A stretch of 64,000 nt of DNA from Comamonadaceae bacterium CD01. Lineage in GTDB: Bacteria; Pseudomonadota; Gammaproteobacteria; Burkholderiales; Burkholderiaceae_C. The DNA is taken from positions 1 to 64,000 of the forward strand of contig PGEI01000005.1 of assembly GCA_002894305.1 (NCBI GenBank), in the 5' to 3' direction. Made by a program: the position numbers and the translations under genes. The notes under the pieces were generated by a model, which was not told the DNA's origin, made no database searches, and saw only the letters and a list, made by a program, of their open reading frames with translations. Below, piece after piece: positions 22,532 through 59,516 of this stretch (position 1 is its first letter; each line of letters opens with the position of its first letter).

Positions 22532-22954
22532 TCAGGCGGCAGGAGCGGCTTGCGCCCGTGCCCTGGCCGCGCGCTGGCGCAGCCGGATGTGCAGGATGCA
22601 GGCGAGAAACAGAATCAGGGTCAACGCCACTTCGAGCAGTGCCAGCCAGCGGCTGGGCGCCGGGTCGCTCCAGGCACGCACCACGCCCTCGGTGAAATAC
22701 AGCCACAGCACCAGGCTGAGCCAGCGGTAGGTGTACATGCGCCGCTTCAGGAGCCCCGCCAGCGGCAGCGCCAGCGGCAGCGCCTTGAGCACCAGCCATG
22801 AGCCGCCCGGGCGCAGCGGCGCCAGCCACAGCTCCCAGGCCAGGCACAGCAGCGCCAGCGCCAGCACGCTGGCGGCGGCCAGCCAGCGGGTGGCTTCAAT
22901 GGCGGGGGCAATGGTTGCGTCGGCAGCGCGAAGATCGGCGGTGTGGGAAGTCAT
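22532..22954 (-). CDS. DUF2069 integral membrane protein
   Basis: About 140 residues with four predicted transmembrane segments (WLAAASVLALALLCLAWELW, WLVLKALPLALPLAGLL, WLSLVLWLYFTEGVV, LLEVALTLILFLACIL) and an Arg/Ala-rich cytoplasmic tail, matching DUF2069. The start MTSHTADL at 22954 leaves a 37-nt divergent gap to yihY. An upstream in-frame ATG at 22993 has a purine-rich GGGGGAAAGG before it but would overlap yihY; I regard it as less likely. No function is known. Confidence 0.78.
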   Translation of the reverse strand: MTSHTADLRAADATIAPAIEATRWLAAASVLALALLCLAWELWLAPLRPGGSWLVLKALPLALPLAGLLKRRMYTYRWLSLVLWLYFTEGVVRAWSDPAPSRWLALLEVALTLILFLACILHIRLRQRAARARAQAAPAA

Positions 22955-22991
22955 GGGAGCGTGCGGTGGCGAATCTGCGATCATATCGGCC

Positions 22992-24245
22992 ATGCCTTTC
23001 CCCCAGACCCTGACGCAGCGTTTGCATGCGCTGCCCCACGATCTGCTGAATTTTCCCTGGCGCAACACGGCGCGCGTGCTGCTGGAGCGCTACCGCGAAG
23101 ACCGCCTGGGGCAGACCGCATCCAGCCTCACCTTCACCACCTTGCTCGCGCTCGTGCCCTTCGTCACGGTGGCACTGGCGCTGTTCACCGCGTTCCCCAT
23201 CTTTGCCGAGATGCAGGAGGTGCTGCAGAAGTGGCTGATGCAAAGCCTGATTCCCGAGAGCATCGGGCAGCAGGTGCAGGGCTATCTGACGCAGTTCGCC
23301 GCCAAGGCCAGCGGGTTGGGGGCGGCCAGCTTTTCGTTCCTGATCGTCACCGCGCTGTCGCTCATCCTGACGATGGATCGCACGCTCAACACCATCTGGC
23401 GCGTACCGCGCCTGCGCCCGCTGGGCCAGCGCGTGCTGATCTACTGGGCGGCGATCACGCTGGGCCCGCTGGTGCTGGCTGGCGGCCTGGCGCTGACCAT
23501 GTCGGCTGCGTCGGCCGCATCGCACAGCCTGCGCGGCACGCTGCCCGGCGGCGTGCGCCTGCTGTTCGGCACCATCGAATTTCTCGTCATGGCCTGCGGC
23601 GTGGGGGCGCTGTACCGCTACGTGCCCAACACCCAGGTGCAGTGGCGCCACGCGCTGGCGGGCGGAGTGTTCGTCGCGCTGTGCCTGGCGCTGGCCAAGA
23701 AGGGCCTGGGCATGTACCTGGCGTCGGTGCCCACGTATTCGGTGATCTACGGCACCTTTGCCACGCTGCCCATCCTGCTGCTGTGGATTTACATCGCCTG
23801 GATCGTCGTGCTGCTGGGCGCGGTGGTTGCCGCCTACCTGCCCAGCCTGCTGGCCGGCGTGGCACGCAAAAGGCCGGCGCACGGCGGCGTCTTCCTGCTG
23901 GCGGTCGAGCTGCTGCAACTGTTGCACGCGGCGCGCGGCGGCGAGCGCCACGGCCTGACCGCGGCGCAGATGGCGCATGCGCTGCTGGTGGACGACCTGC
24001 AGCTGGTGCCGGTGCTGGACGCGCTGACCACACTGGACTGGGTGGCGCAGGTCAACGAGCAGGCCGGCGGTGCCGCGGCGTCCGAGCCCGCACGCTATGT
24101 GCTGCTGGCCGACCCGGCGACGACGCATATGGAGCCGCTGGTGCGCCGCCTGCTGATCGATCGCGGCGATGTGCTGGAGCGCTTCTGGGCCCATACGGGC
24201 ATGGAGGTGCTCAAGCTGGCCGACGTGCTGCAACGGCCGGAGTGA
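22992..24245 (+). CDS. YihY/BrkB-family inner-membrane protein
   Basis: A 417-residue protein with the YihY fold: six or more membrane helices with the family hallmarks SSLTFTTLLALVPF near residue 45, LILTMDRTLNTIW, ALYRYVPNTQVQWRHALAGG and SVIYGTFATLPILLLWIYIAW. Roughly the last 120 residues form a soluble winged-helix-like domain. Members were once called ribonuclease BN in error; the true function is unknown. The start at 22992 gives MPFPQTLTQRL, and the longer upstream frame runs into the divergent gene. Confidence 0.9.
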   Translation: MPFPQTLTQRLHALPHDLLNFPWRNTARVLLERYREDRLGQTASSLTFTTLLALVPFVTVALALFTAFPIFAEMQEVLQKWLMQSLIPESIGQQVQGYLTQFAAKASGLGAASFSFLIVTALSLILTMDRTLNTIWRVPRLRPLGQRVLIYWAAITLGPLVLAGGLALTMSAASAASHSLRGTLPGGVRLLFGTIEFLVMACGVGALYRYVPNTQVQWRHALAGGVFVALCLALAKKGLGMYLASVPTYSVIYGTFATLPILLLWIYIAWIVVLLGAVVAAYLPSLLAGVARKRPAHGGVFLLAVELLQLLHAARGGERHGLTAAQMAHALLVDDLQLVPVLDALTTLDWVAQVNEQAGGAAASEPARYVLLADPATTHMEPLVRRLLIDRGDVLERFWAHTGMEVLKLADVLQRPE

Positions 24246-24278
24246 GGCGCTGCTCGACATCGCTTTCGAGCAAGCCGG

Positions 24279-26558
24279 CTACTGCCGCGCCATCTCCGCC
24301 TGACCGATGCCGTGGCCGTCCAGCGGCTGCTGCGGCTGCAGATCCACCGTCACGCACAGAAGCCGCCCGGTGAAGACGAACGGCGCTGCGTAGTGCGACA
24401 CCGGACTGGCGCGGTCGCGGCCGATGTCCAGACCCGACCAGGAGATCAGCGTGGCGAAGCCGAAGCGGCATGGCCCTTCGGCGACGCAGGCGTCGTCGAT
24501 CCACAGGCGCGCATGGCGGCTGGCCGGGACGATGGCCTGGCCGTGGCCGGGCAGCGGCACGCGCTGCAGCGGGCCCAGTTCCATCTGCACCGCCAGGCGC
24601 CGGCGGCCGGGGGCGACCGGGCGGTCCGAGCGCAGCACCTGGTGCACGCCGCCGACGTTCAGGTCGTGCACCAGGTGGCCGTCCTGCAGGTACAGGCTGT
24701 AGCCGCTGGTGGCGTCGCCGTGGGCGACGAGCACGCCCTCGGCGCCGCCTTCGGGAATCAGCACCTGCGCTTCGATCCGGTAGGCGCGGGCGCGCAGGTC
24801 GGGCGCCACGTCGCTGGGCAGATGGCCCATGCCGTGGTGGAAGACGAAGCGCGTGCGCGCCCCCTGCGCGCGCTGCGCGTTCTCGGCAAAGCGCGCGCCG
24901 AAGCGGTCATCCAGCGGCAGCACCTGGTGCGCCTCGGCCTCCTGCCACCACAGCGCCTGCAGGCGCGCCAGGCGCTCGGGCTCGGCGGCGGCCAGGTCGT
25001 GGTTTTCGGCGAAGTCCTGGTCCAGGTGGTACAGCTCCCAGCGGTCTGCGTCGAACGGCGTGCCGGGCGCGTGCCAGGCGACGGCCTTCCAGCCGCCGTG
25101 CCAGAGACCGCGGTGGCCGAACATCTCGAAAATCTGCGCGCCCTGGCGGCTGCGCGGCGCGGGGTCGGCCAGCGTGGCGCGCAGGCTCTCGCCGGTGACG
25201 GGCTGCTGGGCGATGCCGTGGATCGTCTCGGGCGGCGTGACGCCGCAGACGTCCAGCAGCGTGGGCAGCAGGTCGCGCGCGTGCCAGAAGCCGTGGCGCA
25301 GCTCGCCGCGCGCGGCGATGCCCCGGGGCCAGGCCATGACCAGCGGGTCGCGGATGCCGCCGCCGTGCGTGTTCTGCTTGTAGCGCTTGAGGGGGGTGTT
25401 GGACGCCATGGCCCAGCCGTGCGGAAAGTTGGCGTGCGTGCCTGGGCCGCCGATTTCGTCGATGCGCGCGAGCTTCTCGGCCATCTCCTCGCGGCGCAGG
25501 TTGTACGGGCCCATGGCGTTGACGAAGCCGGCCACGCCGCCTTCCTGGCTGGCGCCGTTGTCCGACAGCACCAGCACCAGCGTGTCGTCCGCCATGCCGC
25601 TGGCGTCCAGAAACTGCATCAGCCGCGCCAGTTGCTCATCGGCGTGCGTCAGCATGCCGGCGTAGGCGCTTTGCAGCCGGGTGAAGACGCGCCGCTCGGC
25701 CTCGCCCAGGCTGTCCCAGGCGGGCACGCCGTCGTTCCTCGGCGGCAATTCGGTGTCGGGCGGCACCAGGCCCAGCGCCTTCTGGCGCGCCAGGCGCTGT
25801 TCGCGCTCCACGTCCCAGCCGTGGGCGAACTGCGCGTCGTAGCCGCGGATCAGCTCCTGCGGCGCCTGGTGCGGCGCGTGGCAGGCGCCCAGCGCGAGCC
25901 ACAGCAGCCAGGGCGCATCGGGCGCATCGGCCTGGTGCTCGGCCAGCATGCGCATCGATTGGTCGACCAGGTCGCTGGTCAGGTGGTAGCCGCTCTCGAA
26001 GCTGCCGGGCGGGTCGACGTGGGTGTTGTCGCGCACCAGCTCGGGGGCGAACTGGTCGGTCTCGGCGTCGAGGAAGCCGTAGAAGCGGTCGAACCCCCGG
26101 CCCAGCGGCCAGCCGTCGAACGGCCCGGCCGGGCCGCTTTGCGTGAGCGGCGTGACGTGCCACTTGCCCACCATGTAGTTGCGCCAGCCGTGCGGGCGCA
26201 GCATCTCGGCGAGCGTGCCCGCGTCCGGACTGATCTTGCCGCGGTAGCCGGGAAAGCCGCTGTCGAAGTTGGCGAGGCACCCGACGCCGACCGCGTGGTG
26301 GTTGCGCCCGGTCAGCAGCGCGGCGCGCGTGGTCGAGCACATGGCCGTGGTGTGAAAGCCGCTGTAGCGCAGGCCGCGCGCGGCGATGGCGTCGATGGCG
26401 GGCGTGCGGATGCTGGAGCCGTAGCAGCCGAAGTCGGAGAAGCCCACGTCGTCGAACAGCACCAGCAGGATGTTGGGCGCGCCCGCCGGGCGCCGGGGCG
26501 CGGCGGGCCAGTGCGGCGTGGAATCGTGGATGGTCTTGCCGATGCGGGGCTGGGTCAT
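24279..26558 (-). CDS. Formylglycine-type (arylsulfatase-like) sulfatase
   Basis: A 759-residue sulfatase of the alkaline-phosphatase superfamily that would hydrolyse sulfate esters. Metal site residues are in NILLVLFDDVGFSDFG (Asp36-Asp37) and VLVLSDNGA; the modification site reads AMCSTTRAALLTGR with Cys74, where the usual CxPxR has Thr instead of Pro. An extra C-terminal beta-rich domain (about 560-759) follows. No signal peptide is visible, so a cytoplasmic location is inferred. It is the last gene of the sulfate-ester operon, 197 nt after the GMC gene, with its own GGGAGA ribosome site. No maturase gene is in the window. Confidence 0.85.
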   Translation of the reverse strand: MTQPRIGKTIHDSTPHWPAAPRRPAGAPNILLVLFDDVGFSDFGCYGSSIRTPAIDAIAARGLRYSGFHTTAMCSTTRAALLTGRNHHAVGVGCLANFDSGFPGYRGKISPDAGTLAEMLRPHGWRNYMVGKWHVTPLTQSGPAGPFDGWPLGRGFDRFYGFLDAETDQFAPELVRDNTHVDPPGSFESGYHLTSDLVDQSMRMLAEHQADAPDAPWLLWLALGACHAPHQAPQELIRGYDAQFAHGWDVEREQRLARQKALGLVPPDTELPPRNDGVPAWDSLGEAERRVFTRLQSAYAGMLTHADEQLARLMQFLDASGMADDTLVLVLSDNGASQEGGVAGFVNAMGPYNLRREEMAEKLARIDEIGGPGTHANFPHGWAMASNTPLKRYKQNTHGGGIRDPLVMAWPRGIAARGELRHGFWHARDLLPTLLDVCGVTPPETIHGIAQQPVTGESLRATLADPAPRSRQGAQIFEMFGHRGLWHGGWKAVAWHAPGTPFDADRWELYHLDQDFAENHDLAAAEPERLARLQALWWQEAEAHQVLPLDDRFGARFAENAQRAQGARTRFVFHHGMGHLPSDVAPDLRARAYRIEAQVLIPEGGAEGVLVAHGDATSGYSLYLQDGHLVHDLNVGGVHQVLRSDRPVAPGRRRLAVQMELGPLQRVPLPGHGQAIVPASRHARLWIDDACVAEGPCRFGFATLISWSGLDIGRDRASPVSHYAAPFVFTGRLLCVTVDLQPQQPLDGHGIGQAEMARQ

Positions 26559-26638
26559 GGAAGTCTCCCGATGGGGTGGCTGTTTTGATGGCTGCTGACG
26601 CTTGCTGGGTAAGCGCTAAATGGTGATTTGGCTTGAAT

Positions 26639-26676
26639 TTCTCCCTCCTCCTCTGGGGGAGGGCTAGGGTGGGGCC
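26639..26676 (+). repeat. REP-like repeat copy A
   Basis: A 38-nt element with a GC hairpin (CCCTCCTCC / GGGGGAGGG around TCT, one mismatch) followed by CTAGGGTGGGGCC. It pairs with the inverted copy 42 nt downstream and resembles the single copy at 59478-59516. It lies in the 197-nt gap between the GMC and sulfatase genes, which otherwise shows nothing recognisable. Confidence 0.6.
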
Positions 26677-26718
26677 AGCAGTGTCTTGTGGCTTCGCCTC
26701 CCTTGCCCATGGCCGGCC

Positions 26719-26754
26719 GGCCCCCATCCCGGCCTTCCCCCAGAGGGGGAAGGA
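26719..26754 (-). repeat. REP-like repeat copy B (inverted relative to A)
   Basis: On the minus strand it reads CTCCTTCCCCCTCTGGGGG then AAGGCCGGGATGGGGGCC, the same layout as copies A and C, with a perfect 9-bp hairpin around TCT. It lies directly after the GMC stop codon. A and B together form a REPIN-like doublet. Confidence 0.6.
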
Positions 26755-26755
26755 G

Positions 26756-28378
26756 TCAAGCGGGGGCACTGCTGCGCCCCAGGATCAGATCGGCCGCGCG
26801 CTCGGCGATCATGATCGTGGGCGCGTTGGTGTTGCCGCCGATCAGGCTGGGCATCACGCTCGCGTCCACCACGCGCAGCGCCTGGACGCCGCGCACGCGC
26901 AGCGCGGCATCGACGACCGAGTCGGCGTCGGCGCCCATGCGGCAGGTGCCGACCGGGTGGTAGATGGTGTCCACGTGCGCGCGCAGGAAGGCTTCGATTG
27001 CCTCGTCACGGCCCTGCCAGTCGGGCTCGGGCTGCAGCGGTGTCTGCGCATACAGGCCGAGCGCCTTGGTGCGCAGCAGCTCGGCCGTCTTGCGGGCCGC
27101 GCGGGTGAGGGCCGCCACGTCGTCCGGGTGCGTCAGGAAGGCCGGGTCGATCAGCGGCGCGGCCAGCGGATCCGTGCTTGCCAGCTTCACGCTGCCGCGC
27201 GACTTGGGCCGCAGGATGCAGGCGTGCAGGCTGAAGCCGTGGCCCAGGTGGCGCTTGCGGCCGTGGCTGTCGACCATGCCCATCACGAAGTGCCACTGCG
27301 CGTCGGGCCGCTCCAGATCCGGCTGCGTGCGGAAGAACCCGCCGCTTTCGGCGTAGTTGGTCGAGAGCATGCCGGATTGATCTCGCTTGTATTGCCCCCA
27401 GGCGCTCCAGAGCGTGCGCAGCCCGGCGAGGCTCAGGCCGAAGAGCCGGGTGTCGTTCAAGCGGCGCGAGAGGATGGCGTCAGGATGGTCCTGCAGGTTG
27501 GCGCCCACCTGCGCGCGGTCGGCCACGCAGGCGATACCCAGGCGCTGCAGCTCGGCGCCCGGGCCGATGCCCGACAGTTGCAGCAGCTGCGGGCTGCCGA
27601 AGGCGCCGGCGCTCACGATGACCTCGCGGTGCGCCGCCAGGTGCCGCTTGCTGGCGCCCTCGATGATTTCGACGCCGCTGGCGCGCTGGCCGTCGAAGGT
27701 GATGCGTGCGGCGTGCGCGTTCGCCATCAGCGCCAGGTTGGCGCGGCCGCGCACCGGGTCGAGGTAGGCATGTGCCGCGTCCGAGCGCACGCCGCGCTCC
27801 TGCGTCACGTGGTACAGGCCCACGCCGTCCTGCTGTGCGCCGTTGAAGTCGCCGTTGCGCGCGTGGCCGCATTCGGCGGCGGCGTCGAGCATCAGCCGGT
27901 TGAAGCCGCTGGGCGAGCGCAGTTCGCTCACCTTGAGCGGCCCGTCGAAGCCGTGCACGCTTGCGTCCGCGTCGGGCACGAGGCAGCCTTCGGCGCGCTT
28001 GAAGTAGGGCAGCACCTCGCTCCAGCCCCAGCCGGTGCAGCCGCCCGCCGCCCAGTCGTCGTAGTCGCTGGCGTGGCCGCGGATGTAGCACATGGCGTTG
28101 ATGGCCGAACTGCCTCCCATCACCTTGCCGCGCGGCTGGTAGCCCCTGCGCCCGTTCAGCCCTGCCTGCGGCACGGTGTCGAAGGCCCAGTTGAGCCTGT
28201 GCGTGGGCACGGTGCCGATCAGTCCCGCCGGGATGCTGACCCAGCGCCCGCCGCTGGCCGGGCCGGCTTCGACGAGAGCCACGCGCACGCCCGGGTCGCT
28301 GCTGAGCCGGTGCGCCAGCACGCAGCCGGCCGAGCCGCCGCCGACGATCACGTAGTCGAAGGTGAGTGCGTCATCCAT
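26756..28378 (-). CDS. GMC-family FAD alcohol/choline-type oxidoreductase
   Basis: A 540-residue FAD-dependent glucose-methanol-choline family dehydrogenase that oxidises an alcohol to an aldehyde or ketone. The FAD dinucleotide motif is VIVGGGSAG near the N-terminus, the GMC signature PRGKVMGGSSAINAMCYIRG lies near residues 80-100, and the C-terminus has the catalytic His in YHPVGTCRMG and the Asn segment GGNTNAPTIMIAE. The ATG at 28378 has AGGA overlapping the end of the alkylsulfatase gene; an ATG at 28411 lies inside that gene. It probably oxidises the alcohol released by sulfatase action. Confidence 0.87.
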   Translation of the reverse strand: MDDALTFDYVIVGGGSAGCVLAHRLSSDPGVRVALVEAGPASGGRWVSIPAGLIGTVPTHRLNWAFDTVPQAGLNGRRGYQPRGKVMGGSSAINAMCYIRGHASDYDDWAAGGCTGWGWSEVLPYFKRAEGCLVPDADASVHGFDGPLKVSELRSPSGFNRLMLDAAAECGHARNGDFNGAQQDGVGLYHVTQERGVRSDAAHAYLDPVRGRANLALMANAHAARITFDGQRASGVEIIEGASKRHLAAHREVIVSAGAFGSPQLLQLSGIGPGAELQRLGIACVADRAQVGANLQDHPDAILSRRLNDTRLFGLSLAGLRTLWSAWGQYKRDQSGMLSTNYAESGGFFRTQPDLERPDAQWHFVMGMVDSHGRKRHLGHGFSLHACILRPKSRGSVKLASTDPLAAPLIDPAFLTHPDDVAALTRAARKTAELLRTKALGLYAQTPLQPEPDWQGRDEAIEAFLRAHVDTIYHPVGTCRMGADADSVVDAALRVRGVQALRVVDASVMPSLIGGNTNAPTIMIAERAADLILGRSSAPA

Positions 28379-28388
28379 CGCGCGTTCC

Positions 28389-30299
28389 TCATTGCTCTGC
28401 GTGGGCGGCATTGACCACGGGGAAGGCGCCGCTGAACCGATCCAGCAGCCCCAGGAAGCGCGCCAGCAGCGGCAGCTGGCCGCCGACCTGCAGGCGGCTG
28501 CCGGCCAGCGCGTCGGCGGGCGCGAGCTGCTGCGACAGCAGCGCGTCGAGCGTGGCGCGGTCGGTGCGCACGCTGGCGTCGGCGGCGGGCGGCGCGTCCA
28601 GCGCGATGCTGCTGAGCGCGCCGTGGGACAGGCTGGTCAGCCAGTGCTCGCCGCTGTCGCTGAAATGCCAGGCGATGTCGAAGGCCAGCCCCTCGGCGCG
28701 CGGCGCGACCACGCGCATCGCCAGCAGGTCGAACAGCAGGCCGTTGGGCAGCGCCCCCAGCATCGCCGCACCCGCGCCGGGCTGGGGCTTGGGCGGTCCG
28801 TTGCGGTATTCGTGCGCGCCCAGCAGGTAGGCGTTGCGCCAGGTGGCCGATTCGGCCTGGAAGCCCATCTGCTCCAGCGCCGCCGCCGCCAGCGCGCGGG
28901 CCGCCTCGTTCTGCGGCTCGGCGTAGACCAGGTGCGCCATGACTTCCGCCACCCAGCGGAATTCGCCGCGCTCGAAGTCCTCGCGCGCCCGCGCCAGCAG
29001 CGCGCCGGCGCCGCCCATGTAGGCGACGTACTTGCGCGCCGCATGAACCGGCGGCAGCCGGTTCAGGTTGGCCGGGTGCGCGTCGTACCAGCTCAGGTAG
29101 TGCTGGTAGATGGCCTTGACGTTGTGCGAGACGGTGCCGTAGAAGCCGCGCGCGTGCCAGCGGCCGGCCAGGCCCGGCGGCAGCTGCAGGCGCTCGGCGA
29201 TCTCGGCGGGCTTGAGGCCGTGGTTCATCAGCCGCACCGTCTGGTCGTGCAGGTAGCGGTACAGGTCGCGCTGCTCGGCCAGGAAGCGCACGGCCCGCTC
29301 GCGGCCCCAGGTGGGCCAATGGTGCTGGCCCAGGATGACCTCGGTGCGCGGGCCGTAGCGGTGCAGCGCCTCGTTCAGGTATTTGGACCAGGCCAGCGCG
29401 TCGCGCACCTTGGCGCCGCGCAGCGGGCACAGGTTGTGCAGCGTGTGCGTGGCGTTCTCGGCCAGGTTGAGCGCGCCCTCGCTCGGGATGAACAGATGCA
29501 TCTCGGCCGGCGCTTCGGTCTCGGGCGCCAGTTGAAACTCCAGCACCAGGCCGTCGATTTCGATCACCTCGTGCGGCTGGGCGATCTCGCGCGTCGGCGC
29601 GATCAGCCCCGGGCGCCCGCGCGGCATGTTCTTGCCCAGGCCGGAATCGACCTGCCCCGCCGGCCCGACGGGCAGCGTGTGGCCGAACTGGAACTGCGCG
29701 CGCCGCGCCATCGCCGGGCCGGCCATCACGTTCTCGGCCACCGCGGCGTGCAGAAAGCCCGCCGGCGCGATGATCTGCACGCGCCCGGCGTCCACGTCCG
29801 CCTGGCGCACCAGGCCCGGCGCGCCGCCGAAGTGATCGACGTGGCTGTGGCTGTAGATCACCGCCAGCAGCGGCCGCTCGCCCCGGTGCGCGCGGTAGAG
29901 CGCCAGCGCGGCGGCGGCGGTCTCGGGTACGGTGAGCGCGTCGAACGCGAGCACGCCGCTGTCGGTCTCGATGAAGGTGATGTTGGCCAGGTCGAAGCCG
30001 CGCACCTGGAAGATGCGCTTGGTGACCTGGAACAGCCCGTGCTCGCGGTTCAGCCGCGCCTGGCGCCACAACAGCGGGTTGACCGTGTCGGGCGCCTGTT
30101 CCTCGGCCAGGAAGCCGTAGGCCGCCAGGTTCCAGACCGGGGCGCCGTCGGGGCGCAGGATGGCCGCGTCCGGAATGCTGCCGAGAAAGCCGCGCCGGGC
30201 GTCGGCCGCGTCCTCGTCGTCCGGGGGCGGCTGCTGGCCGGCCACCAGGCGCTGGAAATCGACGGTGGCGGGGTGGGCGCAGTGGGTGGGGAGGTTCAT
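28389..30299 (-). CDS. SdsA1-type alkylsulfatase (metallo-beta-lactamase fold)
   Basis: A 636-residue zinc alkylsulfatase that would release sulfate and an alcohol from alkyl sulfate esters such as dodecyl sulfate. The metal motif HSHVDH is at residues 151-156, followed by FGGA; the family segment NLAENATHTLHNLCPLRGA is present, then an alpha-helical dimerisation domain and a C-terminal SCP2-like domain (about 510-630). The start at 30299 has AAGGA eight nt upstream; ATG 30308 abuts that site. Unlike Pseudomonas SdsA1, no signal peptide is visible, pointing to cytoplasmic hydrolysis after import. Confidence 0.88.
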   Translation of the reverse strand: MNLPTHCAHPATVDFQRLVAGQQPPPDDEDAADARRGFLGSIPDAAILRPDGAPVWNLAAYGFLAEEQAPDTVNPLLWRQARLNREHGLFQVTKRIFQVRGFDLANITFIETDSGVLAFDALTVPETAAAALALYRAHRGERPLLAVIYSHSHVDHFGGAPGLVRQADVDAGRVQIIAPAGFLHAAVAENVMAGPAMARRAQFQFGHTLPVGPAGQVDSGLGKNMPRGRPGLIAPTREIAQPHEVIEIDGLVLEFQLAPETEAPAEMHLFIPSEGALNLAENATHTLHNLCPLRGAKVRDALAWSKYLNEALHRYGPRTEVILGQHHWPTWGRERAVRFLAEQRDLYRYLHDQTVRLMNHGLKPAEIAERLQLPPGLAGRWHARGFYGTVSHNVKAIYQHYLSWYDAHPANLNRLPPVHAARKYVAYMGGAGALLARAREDFERGEFRWVAEVMAHLVYAEPQNEAARALAAAALEQMGFQAESATWRNAYLLGAHEYRNGPPKPQPGAGAAMLGALPNGLLFDLLAMRVVAPRAEGLAFDIAWHFSDSGEHWLTSLSHGALSSIALDAPPAADASVRTDRATLDALLSQQLAPADALAGSRLQVGGQLPLLARFLGLLDRFSGAFPVVNAAHAEQ

Positions 30300-30322
30300 T
30301 GCATGCATCCTTGTCGTCGCGC

Positions 30323-31132
30323 TCATTGCCAGCGCAGCAGCCAGCGCTCCAGCCGCGCCATGCCCTTGACCACGACCATGCCGAGCGCGGCCAGCAGGAA
30401 CAGCAGCGCCATCACGCCGTCCATGTTGAAGTTCGATTGCAGATAGGCCAGCGTCTGGCCCAGGCCGTGCTCGGCGGCGATGATCTCGGCGCCGACCACG
30501 CCCAGCATCGAGAAGATCAGCCCCAGGCGCAGGCCCGAGAAGATCACCGGCACCGCAGACGGCAGCGTGACCTTCCAGAACAGCTGCAGCGGCGTCGCGC
30601 CCAGCGAGCGGCTGAGCGTGAGGAAGTCCTGCGGCACGCCGCGAATGCCGGCCACCGTGTTGGCCAGCACGATGAAGAAGCTCAGGCTGGTGCCCATGGC
30701 GATCTTGGACGGCAGGCCCAGGCCGAACCACAGCAAAAACAGCGGCGCCAGCGCAAAGCGCGGCATGGCGTTGATGACGGTCAGATACGGATCGAGTGCG
30801 CGCTCCAGCGGCGGCCACTGCGTGAACGCCAGCCCCAGCACGATGGCCGCGGCGCTGCCGAGCAGGAACGAGATGAAGGTGCCCGCCAGCGTGTAGCCCA
30901 GCTCCAGCCACAGGTCGCCGCGCACGAAGAAGCCGCGCCACAGGTACAGCGCGATCTCGCTGGGCTGGCCGAACAGCGTGCGGTCGAGCCAGCCGGCGCG
31001 ACTGCCCCATTCCCACAGGCCGAAGAAGGCGATGAGGAACAGCAGGTGGCGCAGCGCGCTGGCGCCACGTCCGGTGCCAGCGGCGCGCGTGGTCGATGCC
31101 GGCAGCGCGGCGTTCAGGGGCGTTGCGCTCAT
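30323..31132 (-). CDS. ABC transporter permease (NitT/TauT/SsuC type)
   Basis: A 269-residue inner-membrane permease with about six helices and the BPD_transp_1 EAA-type loop SLGATPLQLFWKVTLPSAVPVIFSGLRLGL. The family carries sulfonates, taurine, nitrate or similar anions. Its ATG overlaps the stop codon of the ATPase gene (ATGA), and it ends 23 nt before the alkylsulfatase start, so uptake and hydrolysis genes are tightly joined. Substrate is inferred from the neighbours to be a sulfate ester. Confidence 0.88.
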   Translation of the reverse strand: MSATPLNAALPASTTRAAGTGRGASALRHLLFLIAFFGLWEWGSRAGWLDRTLFGQPSEIALYLWRGFFVRGDLWLELGYTLAGTFISFLLGSAAAIVLGLAFTQWPPLERALDPYLTVINAMPRFALAPLFLLWFGLGLPSKIAMGTSLSFFIVLANTVAGIRGVPQDFLTLSRSLGATPLQLFWKVTLPSAVPVIFSGLRLGLIFSMLGVVGAEIIAAEHGLGQTLAYLQSNFNMDGVMALLFLLAALGMVVVKGMARLERWLLRWQ

Positions 31133-31917
31133 GCCATCGCTCCTTCGGCCTGCGTTTCCGACAGGCGGATGCCGCGCTCCAACTGCTCCCATACCTGCGA
31201 GTACAGCTGCAGGAAGGCCGGGTCGCGCTGCAGCTCGCGCACGTGGCGCGGGCGCGGCAGGTCGATGGCCATGTCGGCGACGATGCGCCCGGGGCGCGCG
31301 CTCATCACCACCACGCGGTCGGCCAGTGCCACCGCCTCGGCCAGGTCGTGGGTGATGAAGACGACGGTGCGCCTGGTCTCGCCCCACAGCTGCAGCAACA
31401 GGTCTTCGAGCTGGATCTTGGTCTGCGCGTCGAGCGCGCCGAAGGGCTCGTCCATCAGCAGCACCTCCGATTCCAGGCAAAAGCCCCGCGCCAGGGCGCA
31501 GCGCTGGCGCATGCCGTGCGACAGCGCCTTGGGGTAGGCGTCGGCAAAGCGGCCCAGGCCCACGCGCTCCAACTCGCGGCGCGCCAGCGCCTCGCGTTCG
31601 GCCAGTGGCACGCCGCGCAGCTCCATGCCGAAGCAGACGTTCTGCAGCGCGGTGCGCCAGGGGAACAGGCAGTCGCGCGCCATGGTGTAGGTCACGCGCG
31701 GGCTGCCGGCGCGCGGCGCCTCGCCGCCGATGGCGATCTGCCCCTGCTGCACCGGCAGCAGCCCGGTCAGGTGGTTCAGGATCGTCGTCTTGCCGCAGCC
31801 GCTGGGGCCGACGATGGCGACGAACTGCCCGGAGGGAATCTCCAGGCTGACGTGGTCCACCGCCAGCACCGCGCCGCCGAAATCGACGCACAGGTCACGG
31901 ATCGAGATGGCTGCCAT
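31129..31917 (-). CDS. ABC transporter ATP-binding protein (SsuB/TauB-like)
   Basis: A 262-residue ABC ATPase. Walker A GPSGCGKTT is at 37-45, the signature LSHGMRQRCALAR at 132-144, Walker B VLLMDEPFGALD at 152-163 and the switch His in VFITHDLAEA. Two departures from the textbook family are visible: LSHGM instead of LSGGM, and YTMARDCLFPW where most relatives have a Gln in the Q-loop; I recall a subfamily with this ARD-LPW pattern. Overlaps the permease by 4 nt and follows the binding protein by 33 nt. Confidence 0.9.
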   Translation of the reverse strand: MAAISIRDLCVDFGGAVLAVDHVSLEIPSGQFVAIVGPSGCGKTTILNHLTGLLPVQQGQIAIGGEAPRAGSPRVTYTMARDCLFPWRTALQNVCFGMELRGVPLAEREALARRELERVGLGRFADAYPKALSHGMRQRCALARGFCLESEVLLMDEPFGALDAQTKIQLEDLLLQLWGETRRTVVFITHDLAEAVALADRVVVMSARPGRIVADMAIDLPRPRHVRELQRDPAFLQLYSQVWEQLERGIRLSETQAEGAMA

Positions 31918-31950
31918 GGCGCGTCTCCCTGAGGGGTGAAAGGGATGGAT

Positions 31951-32988
31951 TCACTCTTGCGGCGCGCCGTCCCAGACCAGGTCTTCCACCTTGGGCGCGC
32001 CCGGCAACTGCTTGGTCTGCTGCAGATAGGTGAGCGTGGACTGCACCGCGCTGCGGCGCACCATGGCCTTGTAGGCGTTGCTGTCGATGCCCAGCTCCAG
32101 CGCGCGCTTGGCGATGGCGTCGCCCTGCGGCATGTCGTAGGGGAAGTACTGGGCGGAGATCTTCAGCACCTCGGCCTCATTGGCGCGGTCGTTGACGAAG
32201 TCGGCCGCCTGCTGCGAAATCTTCACCACCGCCTTTGCAATCTGCGGCTGCTCGGCGATTTGCTGGGCACGCATCACCAGGGCGACGCCGGCGCCGTACA
32301 TCGAGCGCAGCAGCGCCGGTTTTTCGGCCGTGGCGCCGCGGTAGACCACGCGGCAGGCGCGGCTGACCTCGCACATCGTGCCGGCGGGCTCGAAGCTGGA
32401 GATCGCGTCTACCTGGCCCTGGCGCAGCGCGGCAAACGCGGTGTTGGGCGCGCCGACGGCGACGTAGGTCACGTCGTCGGCCTGGTGGCCGGCCTGCTGC
32501 ATCAGCCAGGCGAAGAAGGATTCGCTGGCCGAGCCGCGCGCGACGACGCCGATCTTCTTGCCCTTGAAGTCCTGCATCAGCGCCGGATAGCCCTCGCCCT
32601 CGTGCGCCAGCGCGAGGCCGGCGGCGGCGTCGATCTGGAAGATGTTGGTGACTGCCGAACCGGCCACCGCGCGCAGCTTGGCGCCGCGCAGCACGGCCGA
32701 GGCCAGCACCTCGATGGGCGTCTGCGCGACGTCGATCGAGTTGCCGATCAGCGCCTGCACACCGAGCGGCGCCTGCGGGATGGGTTTGAGCTCGCAGGTG
32801 ATGCCCGCCGCCTGGCACCAGCCCTTGCTGCGCGCGACGCGGATGAGCAGGTTGCCGTGGCCGGGGTAGTCCTGGAAGCGCACCACGGGCGGCGCGTCGG
32901 CGGCCAGGGCGGGCGCGGGCAGGAGGGCCGCGCCCGCCGCCAGGGCCAGGGCCGGCAGGAGCCGGGCCAGGGGGGATGGTGTCGTCAT
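31951..32988 (-). CDS. Periplasmic substrate-binding protein (NMT1/SsuA-like)
   Basis: A 345-residue periplasmic binding protein for the adjoining ABC transporter. A signal peptide (RLLPALALAAGAALLPAPALA) precedes the mature protein; the type II binding fold shows the family segments GNSIDVAQTPIEVLASAVLRGAKL, FKGKKIGVVARGSASE and FAALRQGQVDAISSFEPAG. The ligand is not determined, but the flanking sulfatases suggest an organic sulfate. Its ATG overlaps the tetR stop codon (ATGA), so regulator and transporter are translated together. Confidence 0.87.
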   Translation of the reverse strand: MTTPSPLARLLPALALAAGAALLPAPALAADAPPVVRFQDYPGHGNLLIRVARSKGWCQAAGITCELKPIPQAPLGVQALIGNSIDVAQTPIEVLASAVLRGAKLRAVAGSAVTNIFQIDAAAGLALAHEGEGYPALMQDFKGKKIGVVARGSASESFFAWLMQQAGHQADDVTYVAVGAPNTAFAALRQGQVDAISSFEPAGTMCEVSRACRVVYRGATAEKPALLRSMYGAGVALVMRAQQIAEQPQIAKAVVKISQQAADFVNDRANEAEVLKISAQYFPYDMPQGDAIAKRALELGIDSNAYKAMVRRSAVQSTLTYLQQTKQLPGAPKVEDLVWDGAPQE

Positions 32989-33728
32989 GGTGTCGTCTCC
33001 TGTGCGGGGGGTGGGGAGGGGCGCCGGCGCGCCCGTGTGGGCGGCGTGGCAGCGGGGGTGGCGGGAGGGGTGGGCGCCGGCGCCAGGCCCAGGTAGGCGT
33101 GGACCATGGCCGACAGCTCGGTCTCGAAGGCCGCGTCGTCCAGGTGCAGCGGCCCGGGGTCGGTGAGCACGGCGTTGATCAGCACGCCCTGCATCATCTG
33201 GTGCGCGAACACCAGGCGCTGCTGCGCGGACGGCGTGCTCCAGCCAGCGTGGCGCGCCATGGTTTGCAGCAGCCGGGCGCGGCTGGCCTCGCGCAGGCGC
33301 ACCAGCGGCGAGGCGGCGCGCGCCGCAGGCTCCAGCCGGCGCAGCTTGAGCATGGCGGTGGCGTACAGGCCGCGGTGCTGGCGAAACGACTGCACGCCCA
33401 TGTGCACCCAGTGGCCGACGAACGCGGCGGCGCTCTCGTGCTCGCGCTGCGGGTCGGCGTGGAAGGCCTCGGTGCGGCGCACCATGGCCTGCACCAGCAG
33501 GTCGAGCAGCACGTCGAAGTACGCGTCCTTGTTGTGAAAGCGGGTGTAGAAGGTGCCGGTGGAGCAGCCGATTTCCGCGGCGATGTCGCTGACCTTGACG
33601 TCGTCCCAGTCGCGCGTCTCGGTCAGGCGAAGGCCGGCGTGGATCAGCGCTTTTTCGCGTTCGTGGCCGCGCCGCTGCTGCGGTGCGCGCACTCGCGGAG
33701 CGGACGATGGGAAGCGGGGCGCAGTCAT
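32985..33728 (-). CDS. TetR-family transcriptional regulator, first gene of the sulfate-ester operon
   Basis: A 247-residue regulator with an N-terminal TetR helix-turn-helix (VKVSDIAAEIGCSTGTFYTRFHNKDAYF, about 44-71, broken here only for description) and a ligand-binding helical domain, ending in a Pro/Thr/Arg-rich tail. It is the promoter-proximal gene of the seven-gene minus-strand operon and overlaps the binding-protein gene by 4 nt. A near-perfect 24-bp palindrome 22 nt upstream of its start is a likely operator, so it probably represses itself and the operon until a sulfate ester or its alcohol is bound. Confidence 0.88.
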   Translation of the reverse strand: MTAPRFPSSAPRVRAPQQRRGHEREKALIHAGLRLTETRDWDDVKVSDIAAEIGCSTGTFYTRFHNKDAYFDVLLDLLVQAMVRRTEAFHADPQREHESAAAFVGHWVHMGVQSFRQHRGLYATAMLKLRRLEPAARAASPLVRLREASRARLLQTMARHAGWSTPSAQQRLVFAHQMMQGVLINAVLTDPGPLHLDDAAFETELSAMVHAYLGLAPAPTPPATPAATPPTRARRRPSPPPAQETTP

Positions 33729-33750: not shown

Positions 33751-33774
33751 TATGAATATGAATTCATGTTCATA
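33751..33774 (-). promoter_or_regulatory. Palindromic operator upstream of tetR
   Basis: Arms TATGAATATGAA and TTCATGTTCATA form a 24-bp palindrome with one mismatched base pair, centred on GAATTC, in an AT-rich island that stands out from the GC-rich surroundings. It lies 22 nt upstream of tetR, where a TetR dimer site is expected. Promoter hexamers in the same AT-rich stretch are ambiguous. Confidence 0.6.
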
Positions 33775-33898
33775 AATTTAAAACGCCAGCCAGCGGGTGC
33801 CAACGGGGTTTTCCCGTGGTGCAGGAAACGTGTTTTGCGGTGCCTGGCGAGCGGGCTGCTTCCGCTGGCCTCAGCCGCCGGGCATTAACGTCTGGCCA

Positions 33899-59477: not shown

Positions 59478-59516
59478 TTCTCCTTCCCCCTCTGGGGGAA
59501 GGCAGGAATGGGGGCC
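59478..59516 (+). repeat. REP-like repeat copy C
   Basis: Same layout as the copies at 26639 and 26719: a perfect 9-bp hairpin CCTTCCCCC/GGGGGAAGG around TCT, then CAGGAATGGGGGCC. It stands alone downstream of otnI. The remaining gap to the mtfA stop shows nothing else. Confidence 0.6.

Follow-up and report, generated by a model that had tools for sequence, protein, structure and literature searches.

A candidate organosulfate operon of Comamonas with two predicted cytoplasmic sulfatases and differing importers in related loci

Described systems and a candidate seven-gene operon

Among the described systems for the breakdown of alkyl sulfates, the slf operon (slfRCHSL) of the Psychrobacter plasmid pP62BP1 places a type III alkylsulfatase next to a GMC alcohol dehydrogenase, both governed by a regulator of their own (PMC3346939, PMC10779009). 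It is reported as an operon that is repressed by SlfR and gives breakdown of sodium dodecyl sulfate (SDS) in E. coli (PMC3346939, PMC10779009), and the pairing of an alkylsulfatase with a GMC enzyme in one regulated operon is already known experimentally (PMC10779009). Here, we describe a run of seven genes on the minus strand, from position 33,728 to 24,279, of a 64,000 nt stretch of DNA from Comamonadaceae bacterium CD01 (contig PGEI01000005.1, hereafter the window). The five slf genes include neither a transporter nor an S1 sulfatase, whereas the window operon has both; conversely, the AraC-type regulator, the aldehyde dehydrogenase, the CoA ligase, and the signal peptide on the alkylsulfatase that are described for slf have no counterpart in the window operon (PMC3346939, PMC10779009). 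We consider it fairly likely that the seven genes constitute an operon for the breakdown of an organic sulfate ester, the substrate probably being an alkyl-type sulfate of small or medium size.

An importer together with an S1 sulfatase is the plan of the ats systems, in which importers of the AtsRBC/SsuABC/TauABC kind accompany the arylsulfatase AtsA. The window operon resembles these systems in having an ATPase and a permease of the Ssu/Tau type and a binding protein of the NMT1 fold, which accompany a predicted cytoplasmic S1 sulfatase, but its binding protein stays below the SsuA_fam cut-off, and a TetR regulator, a zinc alkylsulfatase, and a GMC protein are added. The bet operon with the choline sulfatase gene betC of Sinorhizobium combines a TetR regulator with an S1 sulfatase and a GMC dehydrogenase that act in series. 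The window operon has these three families as well, but its proteins miss the BetI, BetC, and BetA cut-offs, and it additionally contains the zinc-type sulfatase and the importer cassette. The bet/betC choline sulfatase is cited in PMC5870055. With SdsA1, SdsAP, and Pisa1, the window alkylsulfatase has in common the full-length similarity, the three domains, and the zinc ligands, but it lacks a signal peptide and carries a Phe/Gly pair where SdsA1 has Tyr/Gly and Pisa1 has Ser/Phe (PMC5426288). The laoABCR genes of P. aeruginosa likewise serve alcohol oxidation after alkylsulfate cleavage (PMC6107682), but, compared by gene numbers and not by sequence (PA0364 and PA0366 versus PA0740 for sdsA1), they are not in one operon with the sulfatase. 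The window unit thus appears to combine the slf, bet, and ats plans, with both sulfatases predicted to be cytoplasmic. No description of it was found among the papers listed by searches of the open-licence literature for the C-S-T-T-R motif of its S1 sulfatase (see below), the ats operon, and Comamonas alkylsulfatase operons, subscription papers being outside the scope.

The gene run is present exactly as a sequence-only reading of the window had described it, on one strand and with two ATGA overlaps. It begins with tetR (32,985..33,728; 247 aa; Pfam TetR_N), followed by the genes for a periplasmic binding protein (31,951..32,988; 345 aa; NMT1), a TauB/SsuB-like ATP-binding cassette (ABC) ATPase (31,129..31,917; ABC_tran), an SsuC/TauC-like ABC permease (30,323..31,132; BPD_transp_1), a type III, that is, metallo-beta-lactamase, alkylsulfatase (28,389..30,299; 636 aa; Lactamase_B, Alkyl_sulf_dimr, and Alkyl_sulf_C), a choline/alcohol dehydrogenase-like GMC flavoprotein oxidoreductase (26,756..28,378; 540 aa; GMC_oxred_N/C), and an S1-family sulfatase (24,279..26,558; 759 aa; Sulfatase), all Pfam matches being over the cut-offs. 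In gene order, the distances are −4, 33, −4, 23, 10, and 197 nt, the −4 nt distances representing the ATGA overlaps; an alternative ATG start of the alkylsulfatase at 30,326 would create an ATGA overlap with the permease gene as well. The third-position G+C content is 0.91–0.95 in every one of the seven genes, as expected for real genes in a window with 68.5% G+C. The family assignments also support two further points of the sequence-only reading, namely that sulfatases of two different families and a GMC protein of the alcohol dehydrogenase type are encoded.

The alkylsulfatase is similar to SdsA1 over nearly its full length (phmmer, 9.1e-184). The zinc motif HxHxDH...E...AE...H is kept (H151, H153, D155, H156, E262, A280-E281, and H326), and both this motif and Phe205/Gly222, at the positions of SdsA1 Y223/G240, are invariant in an alignment of nine sequences including that of the window. 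The residues at these two positions distinguish primary from secondary alkylsulfatases, with Tyr223/Gly240 in SdsA1 and Ser233/Phe250 in Pisa1 (PMC5426288), and the Phe/Gly pair would place the window enzyme closer to the primary type. A link to the secondary alkylsulfatases CS1/CS2 of C. terrigena (PMC3920027) is unsupported, the window residues being nearer to those of the primary type. For the GMC protein, the best PDB match is an oxygen-dependent choline dehydrogenase (2.6e-109); its score with the BetA equivalog model is 471 of the 732 bits required. The best models are TauB-type for the ATPase and SaoP/SsuC-type for the permease, both below the NCBIfam equivalog cut-offs, and the binding protein reaches 95 of the 163.5 bits required for SsuA_fam.

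The predicted locations of the proteins were derived from hydropathy and inspection by eye rather than from a trained predictor. On this basis, the binding protein has a signal peptide, but none was found on the alkylsulfatase of the window or of 18 distinct relatives with at least 61% identity, nor on the S1 sulfatases of the ten loci checked. More distant SdsA1-type relatives at 42–46% (six loci, L043, L044, and L046–L049; L numbers denote loci and G numbers genomes throughout) begin with a hydrophobic or lipoprotein-like stretch and fall into a supported group of their own on the tree; L120 (51%) has a hydrophobic stretch before a possible alkylsulfatase start, which may or may not represent a signal peptide. 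Signal peptides are stated for SdsAP (PMC5426288) and for SlfS/SdsA1 (PMC3346939). A signal peptide on the binding protein and on neither of the sulfatases supports import before desulfation.

From the gene order, the protein families, the operator-like site described below, the predicted locations, and the importer exchange, we infer substrate, uptake, desulfation, oxidation, and induction as follows. The periplasmic binding protein and the ABC transporter would bring an organosulfate anion into the cytoplasm, where one or both sulfatases would remove the sulfate, the zinc enzyme by C-O attack and the S1 enzyme by S-O attack, as assigned from their families. The possession of two sulfatases may make different esters or stereoisomers of a mixture usable. 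The freed alcohol would be oxidised by the GMC flavoenzyme, the gene of which adjoins the alkylsulfatase gene on the same strand with a gap of 10 nt, and the resulting aldehyde would be passed on to enzymes encoded elsewhere. A precedent is the slf operon, which was shown to give SDS breakdown (PMC10779009). TetR would sit on a palindrome by the single promoter until an inducer, either the substrate or the alcohol, releases it.

Operator-like site, gene content and importers of related loci

A consensus scan found a single promoter-like site between 24,100 and 34,000 (TTGGCA-17-TAAATT, 33,775..33,803, minus strand; one site versus a mean of 0.3 in shuffles), which is not by itself evidence of function. 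Directly downstream, starting two bases past this site and thus adjacent to but not overlapping it, lies a near-perfect 22-base palindrome, ATGAACATGAATTCATATTCAT (33,752..33,773, minus strand), which is a candidate TetR-type operator. The only match to its 18-base core in the window is the site itself, read on both strands of the palindrome, with none expected from shuffles. Related sites, with at most five mismatches in 22 positions to the consensus AACATGAATTCATATTCATGTT, are present at or just before the tetR start in all 12 loci with an orthologous tetR (the window, L051–L058, L061, L231, and L234); this consensus was picked after the results of an unguided palindrome search had been seen. 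The same scan gave a site with five mismatches in L059, where no tetR match was found, best sites with six to seven mismatches in L062, L064, L066, L105, and L175, and none in L041; the tetR of L105 (28%, other strand) was excluded because it is not an orthologue. In the unguided search upstream of tetR, which covered 11 loci, the operator was the top-ranking palindrome in eight and outscored nearly all shuffles in six (p 0.015 or less). A different palindrome came out on top in L051, L231, and L058, and the operator of L053 and L056 did not exceed the shuffles (p 0.15–0.16). TetR itself, which is far below the NCBIfam cut-offs for BetI, AcuR, and FadR, presumably binds the palindrome. The operator-like site in 12 of 12 loci supports the proposal of the sequence-only reading that the genes form a single TetR-controlled unit.

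That reading had also named rare co-occurrence of the seven genes in other genomes as a result that would speak against it. The best 80 of 397 alkylsulfatase loci were compared by tblastn maps of the seven proteins, the gene caller having missed or mis-called genes in some loci; several contigs are short, so the neighbour counts are lower bounds, and pairs of designations that refer to one genome (L066/L233, L055/L232, L051/G007, L052/G004, and L053/G002) were each counted once. The full set is present in 2 of the 80 loci, L051 and L057, the contig of the latter ending inside the sulfatase gene. The binding protein, ATPase, and permease genes (B-A-P) lie beside the alkylsulfatase gene in four loci (L051, L056, L057, and L105), an S1 sulfatase gene in seven (L051, L052, L053, L055, L056, L057, and L066), and a GMC gene directly follows the alkylsulfatase gene in eight (L051, L052, L053, L057, L061, L062, L064, and L074). 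Among the seven loci at or above 74% identity (L051–L057), tetR is present in 7/7, the S1 sulfatase in 6/7 (the contig of the remaining locus, L054, ends at the alkylsulfatase), and the GMC gene in 4/7; the GMC gene is retained in all four Comamonas operons. Thus, the exact seven-gene set is rare, which by its own standard partly speaks against the sequence-only reading, but a stable core of tetR, alkylsulfatase, often GMC, and S1 sulfatase is conserved. On plasmids, no close relative of the alkylsulfatase was found (best 57% among the matches listed, with one record in the 60–80% band), and no record covers 80% of the binding protein.

The importer is an exchangeable part of these loci. The ABC cassette lies between tetR and the alkylsulfatase gene in the window, L051, L056, and L057; in L052, L053, L055, L231, and L250 a gene of the major facilitator superfamily (MFS) class is located right after the S1 sulfatase gene. 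None of these loci shows both B-A-P and the MFS gene, L057 being cut at the 3′ end and L250 at the 5′ end. Whole-genome searches gave a similar picture: no relative of the binding protein was found at E 1e-20 in G004, G002, G475, and G672, MFS orthologues (at least 68%) were found only in the five MFS genomes among the 11 searched, G007 has no MFS orthologue, and G000 has only a 29% relative. G615 (the genome of L250, in which the operon start is cut) has a 39% relative of the binding protein on another contig. An alkylsulfatase tree was built from 38 rows, a selection of the loci made in advance of the tree. On it, the distribution of the MFS label requires three gains or losses, which are forced by well-supported branches: L055 (MFS) is sister to L056 (ABC), and L052/L053 (MFS) group with the window and L051 (ABC). 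That unrelated transporters have been exchanged while the enzymes and the operator stayed the same is the strongest evidence for transport as part of the function, and it suggests that transport may be a required but interchangeable part of the unit. As to the import proposed by the sequence-only reading, the predicted protein locations imply uptake before hydrolysis, but sister operons have an MFS transporter in place of the ABC importer.

Several observations weigh against the catabolic operon as outlined above. Apart from the rarity of the full set, the sulfatase genes of L055, L056, L041, and L066/L233 have no GMC gene beside them, which means that the unit can do without alcohol oxidation, and a scan of the seven genes revealed no aldehyde dehydrogenase or CoA ligase, unlike in slf. 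The structure model of the binding protein (predicted local distance difference test score, pLDDT, 88.6) is as close to SsuA (Z 27.4, root-mean-square deviation 2.6, 278 residues aligned) as to PqqT (Z 27.5, deviation 2.7, 287 residues aligned), and is also close to thiamin-type and bicarbonate binders; the predicted fold does not decide the ligand or single out sulfonates. Import by the MFS protein is a prediction, as the proteins of L052 and L055 match TIGR00893 (anion:cation symporter-type) below the cut-off. Neither orthologous importer is in place in L234, L041, L233/L066, and L175. Finally, the importer labels are based on nine related loci, and neither of the two labels is more clustered on the tree than in shuffles, of which 101 and 176 of 500 gave values as low; this would fit repeated exchange and also reflects the few rows.

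Relatives of the importer occur in other settings as well. TauD-family dioxygenases represent another class of alkylsulfate- or sulfonate-cleaving enzymes, and their occurrence near the alkylsulfatase and importer relatives counts in favour of the organosulfate reading. In Camelimonas L105, a gene of this family precedes a related B-A-P, which is located directly before the alkylsulfatase gene, and in L041 it follows the alkylsulfatase gene. The same TauD sequence cluster is found near B-A-P paralogues in L241, L242, L245, L246, L247, and L249, as assigned by sequence clustering, with L241 scanned against family libraries. In L241, L242, L245, L246 (Comamonas G007), and L249, the surroundings of the B-A-P relatives include a dioxygenase of the TauD family, an acylating aldehyde dehydrogenase that resembles EutE/SauS but stays below the cut-offs, and microcompartment shell proteins of the CcmP-like kind, the families again having been scanned in L241 and assigned by clustering in the others; these loci are candidates for a sulfonate or organosulfate microcompartment locus in this family. 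In L238 (G677), a related importer (ATPase 68%, permease 71%, binding protein 48%) adjoins a cytochrome P450 gene.

The surroundings of the operon differ between genomes. The window genome belongs to the same genus, Comamonas, as G007, G004, and G002. On the low side, the operon is followed by a YihY/BrkB-family gene on the plus strand, which ends at 24,245, and on the high side it is flanked by hpnE, hpnD, and hpnC. The operon adjoins yihY also in L052 (C. badia) and L053 (SCN 65-56), convergently in the window (22,731–24,279) and co-directionally in the other two, a difference that might reflect an inversion or a separate insertion at one site. The 197 nt gap between the GMC and S1 sulfatase genes contains an inverted repeat with 34 nt arms (26,641..26,755), which has a related copy near 59,488 in the window; the two are perhaps copies of a dispersed palindromic element.

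The S1 sulfatase and its maturation motif

The S1 sulfatase matches the P. aeruginosa arylsulfatase (PAS) with residues 27–539 (phmmer, 1.9e-73) and has 220 further C-terminal residues. Residues D36, D37, C74, R78, K132, H134, H227, D333, N334, and K394 align with catalytic or metal-binding residues of PAS. However, the maturation motif reads C74-S-T-T-R78 and not (C/S)-x-(P/A)-x-R, so it does not correspond to the canonical formylglycine motif. In a survey of 4058 sulfatases, this position was Pro in 87% and otherwise mainly Ala, with each other residue below 1%, and the updated catalytic pattern admits no residue there but P or A (PMC5066984). The homologues were collected from order and family searches and from the alkylsulfatase loci, with rows covering query residues 60–480. 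Of 59 with a visible motif, the 13 with at least 66% identity read CSTTR (11 rows after two duplicates were dropped), and the other 46 all lack threonine at that position. On the tree, the CSTTR rows fall into a single group with full support. The motif is present in 12 genomes (L057 included), in 11 of which the gene is adjacent to the alkylsulfatase gene, G061 being the exception; in L250 (G615), the sulfatase gene is represented by its second half alone, with the motif outside it. Neither this motif nor the missing match to the maturation enzyme described next was part of the sequence-only reading.

To recognise the formylglycine-generating enzyme (FGE), we used the spacing of a cysteine pair. 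FGE acts on CXPXR, and its copper is bound by two active-site cysteines (PMC12123546). The window genome (3.76 Mb, 212 contigs, 99.96% complete) has no match to PF03781 (FGE), and no anaerobic sulfatase-maturating enzyme (anSME) over the cut-off, the radical-SAM match reaching 42 of 349 bits. Of the ten CSTTR genomes searched, only G677, which also has a CSPTR sulfatase, gave an FGE with this pair, and the PF03781-type proteins inspected from G007, G004, G002, G019, G061, and G476 are without the pair. The search covered CSTTR genomes other than those of L056 and L057, and G475, G672, and G476 were searched with the FGE protein query only; matches without a locus were left uninspected, two of them (G228 and G423) in genomes counted as lacking the pair. 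Altogether, 9 of the 48 genomes searched have an FGE with the cysteine pair.

A general claim that only CSTTR genomes are without FGE was rejected on these numbers (0/9 CSTTR-only genomes versus 8/38 others, p 0.32): many other genomes of the order, with normal motifs, also lack such an FGE, so its absence does not go with the threonine. A difference is seen only against the genomes of the eight nearest non-CSTTR relatives, 6/8 of which have a cysteine-pair FGE (p 0.002, with G677 counted there), the eight being a grade picked from the tree rather than a clade, and relatedness being ignored. In G298 and G268, the cysteine-pair FGE is right beside the sulfatase. In L178 and L179, loci from two genomes of one genus, a cysteine-pair FGE gene directly precedes a CSPTR sulfatase relative. 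The additional S1 sulfatase of C. badia (L237, G004) reads CSATR, although no cysteine-pair FGE was found in its genome. We tentatively suggest, as one possibility that we hold with limited confidence, that the CSTTR clade, which occurs mostly in genomes without a recognisable FGE, is matured by an FGE-independent system with its own recognition signal or works with an unmodified cysteine.

Alternative readings and significance

The lack of an aldehyde dehydrogenase and a CoA ligase, the resemblance of the ATPase and permease to the Ssu/Tau importers of sulfur starvation, and the dispensability of GMC in several loci would also be explained if the operon served sulfur scavenging and not carbon use, with sulfate fed to assimilation when short and the alcohol merely disposed of. 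The dedicated and conserved TetR operator-like site, in place of a gene for a sulfur-starvation regulator, and the retention of GMC in all four Comamonas operons make this rather unlikely in our view. Similarly doubtful is the possibility that the S1 protein is no longer a formylglycine sulfatase, either staying unmodified for want of the canonical motif and FGE or hydrolysing another ester. The replacement of CxPxR/CxAxR by CSTTR across the whole clade and the missing FGE match in the window genome speak for it, but the cysteine, the arginine, and the other catalytic residues are kept, and the gene stays beside the alkylsulfatase gene in 11/12 genomes. Moreover, E. coli modifies CxPxR sulfatases by an unknown enzyme of its own (PMC5870055), so the absence of FGE alone does not exclude modification.

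Less probable still is an importer with an unrelated cargo, such as a vitamin-like or aromatic anion, that lies beside the sulfatases by chance or for reasons of regulation. The nearly tied scores of the predicted fold with SsuA, PqqT, thiamin, and bicarbonate binders and the related importer beside a P450 gene in L238 would fit such a cargo, but the same cassette is found between tetR and the alkylsulfatase gene in four loci, the MFS gene replaces it reciprocally, and a related B-A-P directly precedes the alkylsulfatase gene in Camelimonas L105. A choline-O-sulfate/betaine module of the bet type, with TetR, S1 sulfatase, and GMC dehydrogenase, comprises the same three families, with a score of 471 bits to BetA for the GMC protein and a weak score to BetI for TetR, but it is very improbable, and a choline-sulfate operon was rejected: the proteins miss all three NCBIfam equivalog cut-offs (BetA 471 of 732 bits, choline-sulfatase 61 of 433, BetI 23 of 201), and the operon contains no betaine aldehyde dehydrogenase. 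In addition, SdsA1 and Pisa1 are reported to show no activity on choline sulfate (PMC5870055). A catabolic operon for an organic sulfate ester thus remains the reading we prefer.

Organosulfates include detergents and many natural products. If this reading is true, relatives of Comamonas would have a cytoplasmic route that comprises a dedicated importer, sulfatases of two different families, and an alcohol dehydrogenase, and this would account for their use of such compounds without loss of the products to neighbours. The exchange of the ABC and MFS importers around the same enzymes represents a natural test of the substrate, and the CSTTR sulfatase in a genome free of FGE offers a concrete system for studying how bacteria without FGE make formylglycine.

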